A stretch of DNA of 64,000 nucleotides. Origin: Halostagnicola sp. A56 (GTDB lineage Archaea > Halobacteriota > Halobacteria > Halobacteriales > Natrialbaceae). Made by a program: the position numbers and the translations under genes. The stretch lies in the NCBI RefSeq assembly GCF_000691505.1, contig NZ_JMIP02000015.1:62001-126000 (forward strand). The letters are read 5' to 3'. Each line of letters starts with the position of its first letter. Position 1 is the first letter of the stretch. Shown here piece by piece: positions 54,407 through 59,677 of the stretch. Below the pieces are notes generated by a model that was given only the letters and a program-made list of their open reading frames with translations, searched no databases and had not been told where the DNA came from.

Positions 54407-54544
54407 GGTCACCTCGAGGCGAAGCGGCGGTAAGTATCGGTCGTTTTGATCCACGCGTCGGTCCGCTCTCCCGAGCCAGCGCCGCCGGCGACGCGCCGGC
54501 GCGAAAACGTCGTCCTTAAATGTAGACAGGGGGACGTACAACGT

Positions 54545-55513
54545 ATGACCGAGGATCAAGAGGCCGAGCTCGATGAGCAGGCCGATGACGTCGACGAAGA
54601 AAGCGAAGAAGAGACCGCCGAGGGACTCCAGAACGGAGACTTCGTCGAGATCGCTTACACCGCACGCACCGTCGAAGAGGGACAGCTCGTCGATACGACC
54701 GACCCGGAGGTCGCCGAGGAGGAAGGCGTCGACGACCAGGACCAGGAGTTCGAGCCGCGAACGATCGTCCTCGGTGAAGGGCACATCTTCGAAGGCGTCG
54801 AAGAAGCGATCACCGGCGGCGAAGCCGGTGACGAGGGATCCGTGACGATTTCCGCCGAAGCGGCCTTCGGCGAGTACGATCCCGACGACGTCCAGACCGT
54901 CAGCGCCGACAAGATCGACGAGGACGACCGCTATCCCGGCGCGCACGTCCACATCGACGGCGAACACGGTTACATCAGCACGATCATCGGCGGCCGCGCT
55001 CGCGTCGACTTCAACCACCCGCTGGCCGGCGAGGACGTCGAGTACGAGTACGAAATCCTCGAAGAGGTCGACGACCGCGAACAGCAGGCCCAGGGCCTCA
55101 TCGAGATGTACCTCGACCAGAAACTCGAACTCTGGATCGAGACGGACGAGGTCGAAGAGGAAGTCCCCGTCGAGCCCGACGAAGATGAAGACGAGGACGC
55201 CGAACCGGAGTTCGAGACCGAGACGGTCGAGAAGGAGACGCTCTACGTCGAAGCGACGCCACAGCTGTCGATGAACCAGCAGTGGATGTTCTCGAAACAG
55301 CAGATCGCACAGGACGTCATGGACAAGATCGGCGTCGACCGCGTCATCGTCCAGGAAACCATCGACGGCATGGGCGGCATGGGCATGCCCGGCATGATGG
55401 GCGGCGGCATGGGCGGTATGGGCGGCGGCGACATCGAGGACGCGCTCGAGGACGCCGACGTGGACGCTGACGAGATCGTCGACGAACTCGAAGGCGCAGT
55501 CGACGAAGAGTAG
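54545..55513 (+). CDS. FKBP-type peptidyl-prolyl isomerase (SlyD-like) with Met/Gly-rich tail
   Basis: 322 residues from ATG 54545. The FKBP core (about 18-150) contains FVEIAYTARTVEEGQLVDTT, FEPRTIVLGEGH and EAITGGEAGDEGSVTISAE, with an inserted-in-flap domain (DRYPGAHVHIDGEHGYISTI, about 125-150) as in SlyD-like chaperones. An archaeal C-terminal extension (about 180-280) follows. The last part is rich in Met and Gly (MGGMGMPGMMGGGMGGMGGG) before an acidic end, as in chaperonin-like tails. It should assist folding and may bind metal. Confidence 0.88.
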   Translation: MTEDQEAELDEQADDVDEESEEETAEGLQNGDFVEIAYTARTVEEGQLVDTTDPEVAEEEGVDDQDQEFEPRTIVLGEGHIFEGVEEAITGGEAGDEGSVTISAEAAFGEYDPDDVQTVSADKIDEDDRYPGAHVHIDGEHGYISTIIGGRARVDFNHPLAGEDVEYEYEILEEVDDREQQAQGLIEMYLDQKLELWIETDEVEEEVPVEPDEDEDEDAEPEFETETVEKETLYVEATPQLSMNQQWMFSKQQIAQDVMDKIGVDRVIVQETIDGMGGMGMPGMMGGGMGGMGGGDIEDALEDADVDADEIVDELEGAVDEE

Positions 55514-55582: not shown

Positions 55583-56869
55583 CTAGGCGATGTCTCTGCT
55601 AGTATCGACCGCGACCCCGTCGGCGAGCTCGAGGCTGATCGCCGTCGCCGGTTGGGGCCCGCGCCGACGCTTCGGAACCGCCAGTGTGTGGTTGGGGTCG
55701 GGACTCGAACGATCGGTGGCGAGGTCGAGAACGACGTCGGCGGCGTGTTCGGTTCGCGTGCGATTTTCCGGCTCTGCGAGCCCCTTCAAACAGTGAAGGT
55801 AGCCGACGCTTCCGGTCGTTTCCAGCCGGTCGGCGAGCTCGCCGAGGAACTCGACGTAGGCTGTCGTCTCTGCGCGCTCGAGGACGTCCATCGTGTCGAC
55901 GATCAGATTCGCTCCGTTCGGGAGATCCGCCAGGAGGCGACCGGCGTCTTCGAGCGGCGTCTCGTCGCCGATCGATTTCACGGTCGGGTCGCCGACTGTC
56001 GCACACGTCGACTCGAGCGCGCGAGCGACGGCGTCGACGGATCGCTCGGTCGTGAGGTACACCGTCGGCCGGGCCGACGTGAGTTCGTACAACAGCAGTT
56101 CGGACTGGCTCGCCGCGGCGGCGCTGAACGCGACGAGCGAGCCGGGGGCGATTCCACCCTCGAGCGTTCTGTCGAGGCTTTCGATGCCGGTCGCGAGCCG
56201 ACCGGTCGGCCGCTCCCGTTCCGTGGAATCCTCCGAGAGATGTCCCTCCGATACCAGCGCGTCGGCCAGCGTGTCGTAGGCGTCGCGAGCGGAACTCGAA
56301 TCGAGGGGGTCGTCCACTGGTGGGACGGTCGCGAGGACCGGCACGTCGATCCGCTCGTCGTACCGATCCGGCACCGTCTCAGCTCCCGAAAGCACCGTTC
56401 CGGCGACGGGCGTCTCGAGTCGACGCGCGATGGCGATCGTCTTGGCCGCGGCGGTCAGGCTCTCGTCCGTCGGGGTAGTGACGACGACGGCGACGCGGGC
56501 TGCCCCGAGCGGATCTGCGAGGTCGGGTCCCGCGCCCGACGGACAGTCGAGGACGATATCGGCCGCTTCGGTGCTCAGTTCTCGGAGTTGTGCTTGCATC
56601 GTCGCGGAACCGGACTCGAGCGGTGCCGGGAGGACGCGCGCGTTCGAGTCCTCGGGTATGGGCTGGGCGACATCGGTGAGGGGTTCGTTTGCCCCTGACC
56701 GACCGACGGCCGGCTCCCGGTCGACGCCAGCAACGGTGTGGAGGTTCGGTAACTGCCGGTCCGTATCGACGGCGATCGTGCGAGTTCCGGCGCGCTCGAG
56801 TGCCTTTGCGAGTGCGAGTGCCGTCGTCGTCTTGCCACAGCCACCTTTCGACCCGGCGATTGCGATCAT
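55583..56869 (-). CDS. MinD/ParA-type ATPase fused to a KaiC/RecA-like domain
   Basis: 428 residues. The N-terminal half is a deviant Walker ATPase: AGSKGGCGKTTTALALAKAL (residues 5-24) and VLDCPSGAGPDLADPLG, with VAVDTDRQLPN-like switch residues nearby. From about residue 228 the sequence RLATGIESLDRTLEGGIAPG is the KaiC-family entry motif, but its P-loop is degraded to AFSAAAASQSE, so this half probably does not bind ATP in the usual way. The combination suggests a regulatory or positioning protein whose second domain senses a partner. Transcribed convergently with the FKBP gene; a T-run (GATTTTTCGG) near 55540 lies between them. Confidence 0.75.
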   Translation of the reverse strand: MIAIAGSKGGCGKTTTALALAKALERAGTRTIAVDTDRQLPNLHTVAGVDREPAVGRSGANEPLTDVAQPIPEDSNARVLPAPLESGSATMQAQLRELSTEAADIVLDCPSGAGPDLADPLGAARVAVVVTTPTDESLTAAAKTIAIARRLETPVAGTVLSGAETVPDRYDERIDVPVLATVPPVDDPLDSSSARDAYDTLADALVSEGHLSEDSTERERPTGRLATGIESLDRTLEGGIAPGSLVAFSAAAASQSELLLYELTSARPTVYLTTERSVDAVARALESTCATVGDPTVKSIGDETPLEDAGRLLADLPNGANLIVDTMDVLERAETTAYVEFLGELADRLETTGSVGYLHCLKGLAEPENRTRTEHAADVVLDLATDRSSPDPNHTLAVPKRRRGPQPATAISLELADGVAVDTSRDIA

Positions 56870-56964: not shown

Positions 56965-57882
56965 ATGCGACACGATCACCTCATCACGAGCAAACAACTG
57001 TCGCGGGCGGATATCGAGACCGTCCTCGATCACGCAGCCGAGATCGACGCCGACAGGTCGGCCGTCGCCGACAAATATTCCGATCGGCTCCTCGGCTTGC
57101 TCTTTTTCGAACCGAGCACGCGGACGAAACTCAGCTTCGAGACCGCCATGAAACGTCTCGGCGGGGACGTCATCGACATGGGTTCGGTCGACTCCTCGAG
57201 CGTGACCAAAGGCGAGAGCCTCGCGGACACGATCCGCGTTATCGAAGGCTACGCCGACGCGCTCGTCTTGCGCCACCCGAAACAGGGCGCGGCGACGATG
57301 GCGAGCGAGTTCGTCGACGTGCCGCTGGTAAACGCCGGGGACGGGGCGGGTCACCACCCCACCCAGACGATGCTCGATCTGTACACGATCAGGGAGAACG
57401 CGGGGCTCGACGACCTGACGATCGGCATCATGGGCGACCTGAAATACGGTCGGACCGTCCACTCGCTGGCGTACGCGCTCACGAAATTCGACGCACAGCA
57501 ACACTTCATCAGTCCCGACAGCCTCGCGCTCCCGCGAGAGGTCGTCTACGACCTCCACCAGGAGGGGGCGTCGATCCGCGAGCACGACGGCCTCGAGGAG
57601 GTCCTGCCCTCGCTCGACGTCCTCTACGTGACGCGGATCCAGCGCGAACGATTCCCGGACGAAAACGAGTACCAGAAGGTCGCCGGCGAGTACCAGATCG
57701 GTCCCGACTCGCTCTCGAGCGCATCGGACGACCTGACGATTATGCATCCGCTACCTCGGGTCGACGAAATTGCACCCGAAGTCGACGATACCGAGTACGC
57801 GGCCTATTTCGAGCAAGCGCACAACGGCGTCCCCGTTCGAATGGCACTGCTCGATCTCCTGCTTGGTGATTCAGATGACTAA
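56965..57882 (+). CDS. pyrB: Aspartate carbamoyltransferase, catalytic chain
   Basis: 305 residues from ATG 56965 ([18 protein letters not shown]). [15 protein letters not shown] binds carbamoyl phosphate, HPTQTMLDL and MHPLPR complete the active site. It makes carbamoyl aspartate in pyrimidine synthesis. Its stop overlaps pyrI (ATGACTAA), ensuring coupled production of the holoenzyme. Confidence 0.96.
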
Positions 57883-58722: not shown

Positions 58723-58843
58723 CACGCCAACCAACTCGATCGAATAGGCCGGACTGGTGGTAGTTCGGACACCGGTCGAACGGCCCGCCGCCAGCAGACG
58801 GGAAACCCGAACCGCTTACCCGTGCGGCGTCGTACGGACGACT

Positions 58844-59677
58844 ATGTACGGCGTCGTCACGCGCAACGAAGACGAACTTGACTGGCCGGAGTTCGATCGC
58901 GCCTTTTACGAAGTCAAAGACGTGACCGGCAGGTCCGCAGCGCCCGCCGAGAACGCGGTGAACATGGTCTCGTGTTTCGGTGACAACGCGGCGGCCGACG
59001 CCGAACCGTCGCTGGTCCCGATCGATGACGAGGGAAACGCCGCCACTCGAGACCGGCCCTACTTCGACTGGGCGTACATCTGCCCGACCCGCGAGGAGTA
59101 CCGCGAGGGGCTGTTCGAGATCATCGACGACTGCGTCGCGGCAAACGGGGACGTTCGACTCGACGACATCGGCTTCCCGCGGGCCGAGTACTGTCACTGT
59201 GATACCTGTACAGAGCGCTTCGCCGAGAGCGAGTACGACGACCGTCTCGAGTGGCGCGCGAGCGTCATCACGGAGTTCGTCGTCGAGGCTGCGGATCGAA
59301 TCCCCGGACGCGTCTACATGACGCTGTATCCCGACCCCTACCCCGGACACCTCTACGAGCGCGCGGGGATCGATCTCGAAGCGATCGAGCCCGTCGTCGA
59401 CGAGTTCGTCGTTCCGCTGTACGACATGGCCTACTCGACGACCTACTGGCTCGAGACGATCGCGAAGGGGTTCGAAAGCGCGCTCGAGACCCCCTTCAGT
59501 ATCGAGTTGTACGCCATCGATATCGAGATCGACGATCTCATCGGCGCCGCGAACGTCGCCGACGCCTACGCCGAGTCGGTGCTCTTCGGGTACGAGGCGA
59601 GCAACGGTCGGGCGACGCTGCGACGCATGCGGGCTGATCAGCGATCGGGCGTCTCCCACGGGGAACCGAACGGTTAG
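58844..59677 (+). CDS. Conserved haloarchaeal protein, TIM-barrel glycosidase-like
   Basis: 277 residues from ATG 58844 (MYGVVTRNEDELDWPEF). The segment DIGFPRAEYCHCDTCTERF, with its cluster of three cysteines, resembles the strand-plus-CxxC segment seen in several glycoside-hydrolase-like TIM-barrel proteins, and VYMTLYPDPYPGHLYERAG could be a following strand. This is a weak resemblance; the enzyme activity is unknown. An upstream GTG at 58757 is less likely. Confidence 0.6.
   Translation: MYGVVTRNEDELDWPEFDRAFYEVKDVTGRSAAPAENAVNMVSCFGDNAAADAEPSLVPIDDEGNAATRDRPYFDWAYICPTREEYREGLFEIIDDCVAANGDVRLDDIGFPRAEYCHCDTCTERFAESEYDDRLEWRASVITEFVVEAADRIPGRVYMTLYPDPYPGHLYERAGIDLEAIEPVVDEFVVPLYDMAYSTTYWLETIAKGFESALETPFSIELYAIDIEIDDLIGAANVADAYAESVLFGYEASNGRATLRRMRADQRSGVSHGEPNG

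Follow-up and report, generated by a model that had tools for sequence, protein, structure and literature searches.

The 64,000-nucleotide stretch of Halostagnicola sp. A56 analyzed here (the window) encodes a 428-amino-acid protein in which a MinD-type ATPase is fused to DUF7125, a domain that sequence and structural model show to have a KaiC fold without the ATP-binding loop. This anatomy, a MinD half joined to a KaiC-fold half, is near certain. With moderate confidence, we propose that the fusion regulates pilus-type machines, driven by its MinD half and using the dead KaiC domain as an ArlH-like adaptor; the cargo is suggested by the gene neighbors of relatives, not by those of the window's own copy. 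The features of the fused gene and its locus are as follows.

55583–56869, minus strand: fused gene, MinD-type ATPase plus DUF7125 pseudo-KaiC, 428 aa (ORF, Pfam, 91% copy)
56255–56869, minus strand: MinD half, residues 1–205 (Pfam CbiA and ParA; phmmer; Foldseek)
56825–56848, minus strand: deviant Walker A KGGCGKTT, residues 8–15 (K8 in 45/45 and K13 in 40/45 aligned fusions)
56738–56767, minus strand: switch I DTDRQLPNLH, residues 35–44 (D37 in 45/45 aligned fusions)
56534–56560, minus strand: Walker B/switch II with DCPSG, residues 104–112 (D108 in 45/45 aligned fusions)
56204–56248, minus strand: linker, residues 208–222 (pLDDT <50 at 213–222)
55586–56203, minus strand: DUF7125 pseudo-KaiC half, residues 223–428 (Pfam PF23442, AlphaFold2, fold matches)
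56099–56122, minus strand: replaced P-loop AAAASQSE, residues 250–257 (E257 in 81/81 aligned family rows)
55895–55912, minus strand: Walker B strand, residues 320–325 (D325 in 81/81 family rows)
55664–55672, minus strand: K-x-R, residues 400–402 (K and R in 81/81 rows; aligned with KaiC LKFRG, LKMRG)
56974–57882, plus strand: pyrB (aspartate carbamoyltransferase), divergent neighbor, marker of the ancestral locus (Pfam; synteny)
54446–55513, plus strand: FKBP-type prolyl isomerase, convergent neighbor, marker of the ancestral locus (Pfam; synteny)

According to the ORF list and its translation, the gene is a single minus-strand frame with an ATG start that spans exactly 55583–56869. It is not a chance product because a full-length copy with 91% identity is present in a genome of the same genus, and the original prediction of a true fusion is borne out. 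The nearest named loci are those of Halostagnicola sp. A-GB9-2 (61%), a Natrialbaceae MAG (53%), and Natribaculum breve (51%).

The N-terminal half was identified as MinD/ParA by Pfam (CbiA, E 2e-13), by phmmer against the archaeal MinD 1g3q (E 1.6e-12), and by Foldseek, which matched the MinD folds 1ion (E 2.6e-14) and 1g3q. All marks of MinD/ParA proteins are present, including KGGxGK[ST] with the signature lysine, the DxD of switch I, and the Walker-B Asp, and the deviant Walker motif is intact (KGGCGKTT), as had been predicted. Its score against NCBIfam minD_arch (TIGR01969) is 73.7 bits, below the cut-off of 201.75, and this half is a member of the wider MinD/ParA superfamily outside the curated minD_arch subfamily; a MinD2-type protein (L215) also falls under this cut-off with 190.2 bits. 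In the AlphaFold2 model of the full fusion (pLDDT 81.7), a low-confidence linker joins the two domains, whose mutual orientation is not fixed at the pTM of 0.51.

Residues 223–428 match Pfam DUF7125 (PF23442) with an E value of 3e-57 (193.5 bits against a cut-off of 29.1) and cover the profile end to end, from 2 to 207 of 207. AlphaFold2 modeled this half alone with high confidence (pLDDT 90.7, pTM 0.88), and the PDB matches listed for the model include KaiC, SSO2452, PH0284, FlaH, and RecA/RadA (lowest Foldseek E value 2e-11; VIA Z scores of roughly 20–21; FlaH 4wia at VIA Z 20.0). Because the model matches KaiC and RecA structures, the RecA-like fold on which the original prediction hinged is indeed predicted for the C-terminal half. 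Its Pfam KaiC score of 18.7 bits is below the cut-off of 26.6, and a weak sequence match to 2w0m was found (E 3e-7).

The original prediction also held that the KaiC-like P-loop is replaced by Ala/Ser residues. AAAASQSE does occupy the KaiC P-loop position, but this replacement is family-wide: GxxxxGK[ST] was found in the first 60 residues of none of the 162 distinct DUF7125 sequences (those in fetched loci at ≥60 bits), 146 of which have a loose form of the replacement motif. In an 81-row alignment (from an 84-row reduced set, without L021, L139, and L141; L001, identical to the window, was also omitted), the motif PASQSE is kept with A in 80, P in 75, A in 77, S in 79, Q in 78, and E in 81 rows, and just four of 199 eight-residue windows, the motif's own included, are at least as conserved. 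The replacement is therefore a kept feature and not decay, and P-loop loss is a trait of the DUF7125 family rather than a peculiarity of the fusion. Asp 104, Lys 179, and Arg 181 of DUF7125 (325, 400, and 402 of the fusion) are invariant in all 81 rows, and in profile alignments Lys 179 and Arg 181 fall on LKFRG and LKMRG of KaiC, whose K-x-R we take to contact the ATP of the adjoining subunit. DUF7125 thus shares the fold, the Walker-B Asp, and the K-x-R with KaiC, SSO2452, and PH0284, but differs from such KaiC-like proteins in the missing P-loop (162/162) and the sub-cut-off Pfam KaiC score. The fusion gives a Pfam family of unknown function a likely role together with a warning, namely a KaiC-like fold with no P-loop ATP binding.

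Of 242 Halobacteria genomes, 233 carry DUF7125 above its cut-off; the seven genomes of the class that lack it include no Natrialbaceae. DUF7125 is also above cut-off in 127 of 246 genomes of the phylum sample, although many of the non-haloarchaeal matches are partial and may represent ordinary KaiC-like proteins. The loci of twelve near full-length non-haloarchaeal matches were fetched (L245 and L246 are near-copies, the latter a 4.7-kb contig). None of the 12 relatives has a P-loop at the expected place, a late [PQ]K-x-R can be made out by eye in 11, and no fusion-type MinD lies near any of them.

The fusion itself occurs in at least 60 of 125 genomes of Natrialbaceae (GTDB family code f1, equated via the nearest named loci), counted as long unbroken matches among those listed, to which low-scoring ones may add. 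Outside this family it was found in none of 80 fetched DUF7125 loci, a set biased to high scores in which some places were fetched twice; the unfused halves are adjacent in 61 of these loci (55 by script and six from its coordinates) and not adjacent in 19. The phylogenetic spread asked for in the original prediction is thus that of a fusion seen in Natrialbaceae only, with the halves often adjacent genes elsewhere, and the claim that such fusions are rare is right outside Natrialbaceae and wrong within it. Long open frames in G038, G192, G200, G257, and G040, as well as in G056, G064, G070, G075, G078, and G082, carry the two parts on separate ORFs and no fusion, and in G054 the DUF part is split over two ORFs, neither of which is that of its MinD.

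Within Natrialbaceae, the halves are separate neighbors in genera g9 and g7 (eight genomes), as seen directly in G010, G012, G260, and G261, by coordinates in G235, G236, and G253, and by a single in-frame stop in G264. A conserved in-frame stop with readthrough between the paired genes was considered and rejected because 42 distinct junctions spread over the three frames (11, 17, and 14). At E 1e-15, 52 of 125 Natrialbaceae gave no match to the MinD half, yet no member of this family is among the seven genomes without DUF7125, indicating that DUF7125 is kept where a fusion-type MinD is missing. Four loci (L207–L210; G069, G045, G154, and G198) have a fusion-clade MinD in genomes without detected DUF7125. 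Two genomes (G065 and G241) have one MinD match in two pieces and a barely detectable DUF7125 (E 8.5e-4 and 3.8e-4), which may reflect joint decay of the pair.

Two genomes of genus g60 encode four MinDs each at E 1e-12, which helped to place the MinD half. One lies on a frame of 638–666 codons and was taken as MinD4 on the basis of the length we assume for that protein. Another carries K16 and a K-to-D spacing of 101 (L215/L218). This is the numbering of H. volcanii MinD2, for which K16A and D117A are reported (PMC11621097; PMC11588486). In the DUF7125-linked MinD, the lysine is K13 and the spacing to the Walker-B Asp is 83 or 90; in a 59-row tree, this MinD stands apart from the MinD1, MinD2, and MinD4 types. 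The four MinD positions of G113 (456400, 718705, 790849, and 2370791) fit the order HVO_0595, 0322, 0225, and 1634, and the DUF7125-linked MinD would therefore be MinD3. By elimination, with the three other g60 MinDs fitting MinD1, MinD2, and MinD4, and by gene spacing, the MinD half of the fusion thus probably falls in one clade with the unstudied H. volcanii MinD3 (HVO_1634), which is unfused there, unlike the Natrialbaceae fusion. Genus g60 is taken as Haloferax-like from the number, residue numbering, size, and spacing of its MinDs, and H. volcanii DUF7125 scored above cut-off as a control.

It had also been considered that the MinD half is MinD2 and DUF7125 is HVO_0596, because HVO_0596 follows minD2. 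MinD2 (HVO_0595) is likewise a MinD with a downstream partner gene, HVO_0596, likely in the same operon (PMC11588486). This identity is refuted by the K16/D117 numbering of MinD2 against K13 and the shorter spacing of the DUF7125-linked MinD, and by the tree. The available extracts of PMC11621097 and PMC11588486 yielded no phenotype for MinD3.

The 60 fusions fall into two types. Seven (type A) lie at the pyrB-FKBP locus and comprise those of the window, three genomes of the same genus, both g16 genomes, and one g14 genome; most fetched stand-alone Natrialbaceae DUF7125 copies are also at this locus. The other 53 (type B) lie elsewhere, usually beside a MinD1-type gene, and of the 28 type-B genomes in the distance test described below, 27 have a second, stand-alone DUF7125 listed. 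In the trees, the MinD half of every fusion included falls into a single clade (support 98; 100/99 in the 59-row tree). The DUF halves of type B also form a clade (99; 99/96), those of type A group with stand-alone copies with a support of only 86, and the DUF halves of both types together with the stand-alone copies form a clade (99; 99/90) that leaves the pair L014 of genus g7 outside. The simplest history would be one fusion and a duplication, after which most lineages lost the MinD half from the pyrB locus; domain exchange between copies may be an alternative. Two independent fusions are disfavored by the single clade of MinD halves. The unfused L014, although from family f1, groups with other families (L110, 96/93) and may therefore have been acquired, so that it need not represent the ancestral state of Natrialbaceae.

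Several type-B loci (L067–L072, L079, L183, L188, and L189) share a repeated cluster in which the fusion is followed by a protein without Pfam match, a protein that matches TrkA-C weakly, and a MinD1-type gene. Many type-B fusions are followed by two ORFs, unk7293 and TrkA-C, whose homologs were found in four of six genomes searched; none of the ORFs listed around these homologs matched any MinD query. The P-loop lysine of the MinD half is replaced by Thr in five of 45 aligned fusions, all of type B (L018, L021, L022, and L067 with KGGCGTST; L169 with KGGCGTTV), whereas the signature lysine is kept, and in these lineages the MinD half may be turning inactive.

The evidence for a pilus-type cargo comes from gene neighborhoods of relatives. 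T2SSE and T2SSF genes precede the DUF7125 relative in five of the 12 non-haloarchaeal loci, directly in L247, L250, L252, and L253 and across a 0.9-kb gap in L245; T2SSF was identified by Pfam in all five, whereas T2SSE was assigned by Pfam in L247 and through its resemblance to the L247 gene in the other four. Neither gene was seen within about 8 kb in the remaining seven loci, among them the 4.7-kb contig L246. Among haloarchaea, T2SSE and T2SSF lie downstream of DUF7125 in the same orientation in Halogeometricum pallidum (L137) and on a plasmid of H. mediterranei (L257), where the other neighbor of DUF7125 is a type IV pilin gene; in L139 DUF7125 is ahead of T2SSE, and on plasmid L260 T2SSE and a pilin lie within 4 kb and T2SSF within 7 kb. 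Three of five plasmid copies (L258, L259, and L261) have neither T2SSE nor T2SSF within about 8 kb, and neither was seen in L140, L141, L146, and L149, whose flanks are short. Overall, T2SSE or T2SSF is present in eight of 92 DUF7125 loci of at least 10 kb. DUF7125 members next to these genes occur on both sides of the deepest split of the rooted tree, in which the outgroup branch is very long.

Distances to T2SSE were searched in 28 of the 53 type-B genomes and in three type-A genomes. All 31 of these MinD3 genomes contain a T2SSE match of 56–80 bits, a grouping by score rather than by clade (the Tad-like T2SSE class, as in L064 and L172). The type-B fusion is within 15 kb of T2SSE in 17 of the 28 genomes, from six genera (0.9 expected for uniform placement), and beyond 15 kb in 11, versus none of 27 copies at the pyrB locus within this distance; given the kinship of these 28 genomes, the linkage may stem from a single ancestral position. 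For the window's fusion, no T2SSE was detected anywhere on the 300-kb contig at E 1e-8. The T2SSE of L172 most resembles TadA-type ATPases but scores below the NCBIfam cut-offs. TFIIB genes lie beside several type-B fusions (L068 and L172–L175), which fits the published association of TFIIB with pilus loci: the regulators described as linked to type IV pili in archaea include FleN/MinD-like and KaiC-family ATPases and TFIIB homologs (Makarova 2016; PMC4858521). Both classes of the fusion are thus named in that work and TFIIB is shared as a neighbor, although its available extracts mention neither a MinD-KaiC fusion nor loss of the P-loop.

A possible mechanism is that an old haloarchaeal gene pair was fused into a two-domain regulator, whose MinD3-type half would bind ATP and switch between monomer and sandwich dimer, by analogy with other deviant-Walker ATPases, marking a place or state in the cell. 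The DUF7125 half would most likely dock as an adaptor on a type IV pilus-type machine, with its T2SSE ATPase and T2SSF platform, as KaiC-like FlaH/ArlH does on the archaellum ATPase; FlaH interacts with the FlaI ATPase (PMC4858521). DUF7125 has the KaiC fold in common with FlaH/ArlH, and its relatives sit in T2SSE-T2SSF clusters, but it lacks the P-loop, and these clusters are of T2SSE/T2SSF genes not identified as archaella. Fusion would fix one adaptor per ATPase subunit, so that ATP-driven MinD dimers would bring two adaptors together, and the paired adaptors could control where or when the machine gets built. The fusion bears on the wider question of how archaeal MinD proteins recognize cargo. 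Deletion of a predicted partner of H. volcanii MinD2 gave no phenotype (PMC11588486). Here, the partner is on the same chain, has a clear fold, and has some relatives near pilus genes, which makes a specific cargo and E257, D325, K400, and R402 testable. We found no experiments on either half in the literature and nothing on DUF7125 or HVO_0597 by name; a MinD-KaiC fusion is absent from the titles and abstract openings of the related papers listed, a scope that leaves aside the 2017 paper on KaiC-like hubs in archaea cited by PMC13286277.

The original prediction had suggested control of polarity or a motility complex, and polar placement of motility machines by the fusion, in the manner of MinD2 and MinD4, has to be weighed. 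In H. volcanii, MinD2 and MinD4 influence where archaella and chemotaxis arrays lie (PMC11588486), FlaH is among the folds listed for the C-terminal half (4wia, Z 20.0), and the archaellum family Arch_fla_DE is commoner in Natrialbaceae with a fusion-type MinD (55/72) than in those without (28/53; Fisher p 0.007, uncorrected for kinship, the former including one genome that lacks the DUF half and three whose matches are partial). This association is weak and has many exceptions: it drops to 45/60 versus 38/65 (p 0.06) for fused genomes only, and 17 of the 72 genomes lack Arch_fla_DE, with no match in either g16 genome (G019 and G278) despite their fusion. The motility reading is weakened further because the MinD half lies outside the MinD2 and MinD4 clades and fits MinD3, and the H. 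volcanii quadruple minD deletion could not be told apart from the minD2/minD4 deletion in motility (PMC11621097). We therefore consider a motility role unlikely, and the neighborhoods of relatives point to type IV pilus-type machines instead. One DUF-less copy of the fusion-clade MinD (G020; L145:1402–2124, L184:6399–9079) lies 24 bases behind a CheC/CheX gene, which would suit a link to chemotaxis; it overlaps an ORF matching the MinD1-type query.

Alternatively, the dead subunit may act in trans, its K-x-R serving the ATP site of a live KaiC-like or other RecA-fold neighbor and thereby making or tuning a mixed ring, with MinD setting place or amount. The invariance of the K-x-R (81/81) and its alignment with LKFRG/LKMRG, despite loss of the P-loop half of the site, speak for this, as does L256 (L256:1881–3378; G445), where the gene directly ahead of the pseudo-KaiC is KaiC-like and has a near-canonical P-loop, so that the two may form a live-dead pair. 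Such a neighbor is present in just one of 12 non-haloarchaeal loci, however, no partner is known in haloarchaea, and the residues may be kept for folding or another ligand, so that action in trans seems doubtful. Equally doubtful is a broader version, in which DUF7125 and its relatives would be an old dead-KaiC subunit of pilus-type machines throughout the phylum, stripped of the ATP-receiving half of its site but retaining the half that KaiC presents to its neighbor (K-x-R), and so acting in trans on a live ATPase; a dedicated MinD would have been added in haloarchaea and joined on the same chain in Natrialbaceae, where a positioning ATPase would then itself carry the switch of the machine it places. 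More improbable still is that DUF7125 simply stimulates or restrains the MinD half and has no cargo of its own: operon-like pairing and fusion would be expected of such a regulator, but genomes lacking a match to the fusion-type MinD retain DUF7125, and its relatives lie beside pilus genes without such a MinD nearby. At the window's own locus, a plus-strand ORF at 58757–59677 without Pfam match is conserved near pyrB in many Natrialbaceae.
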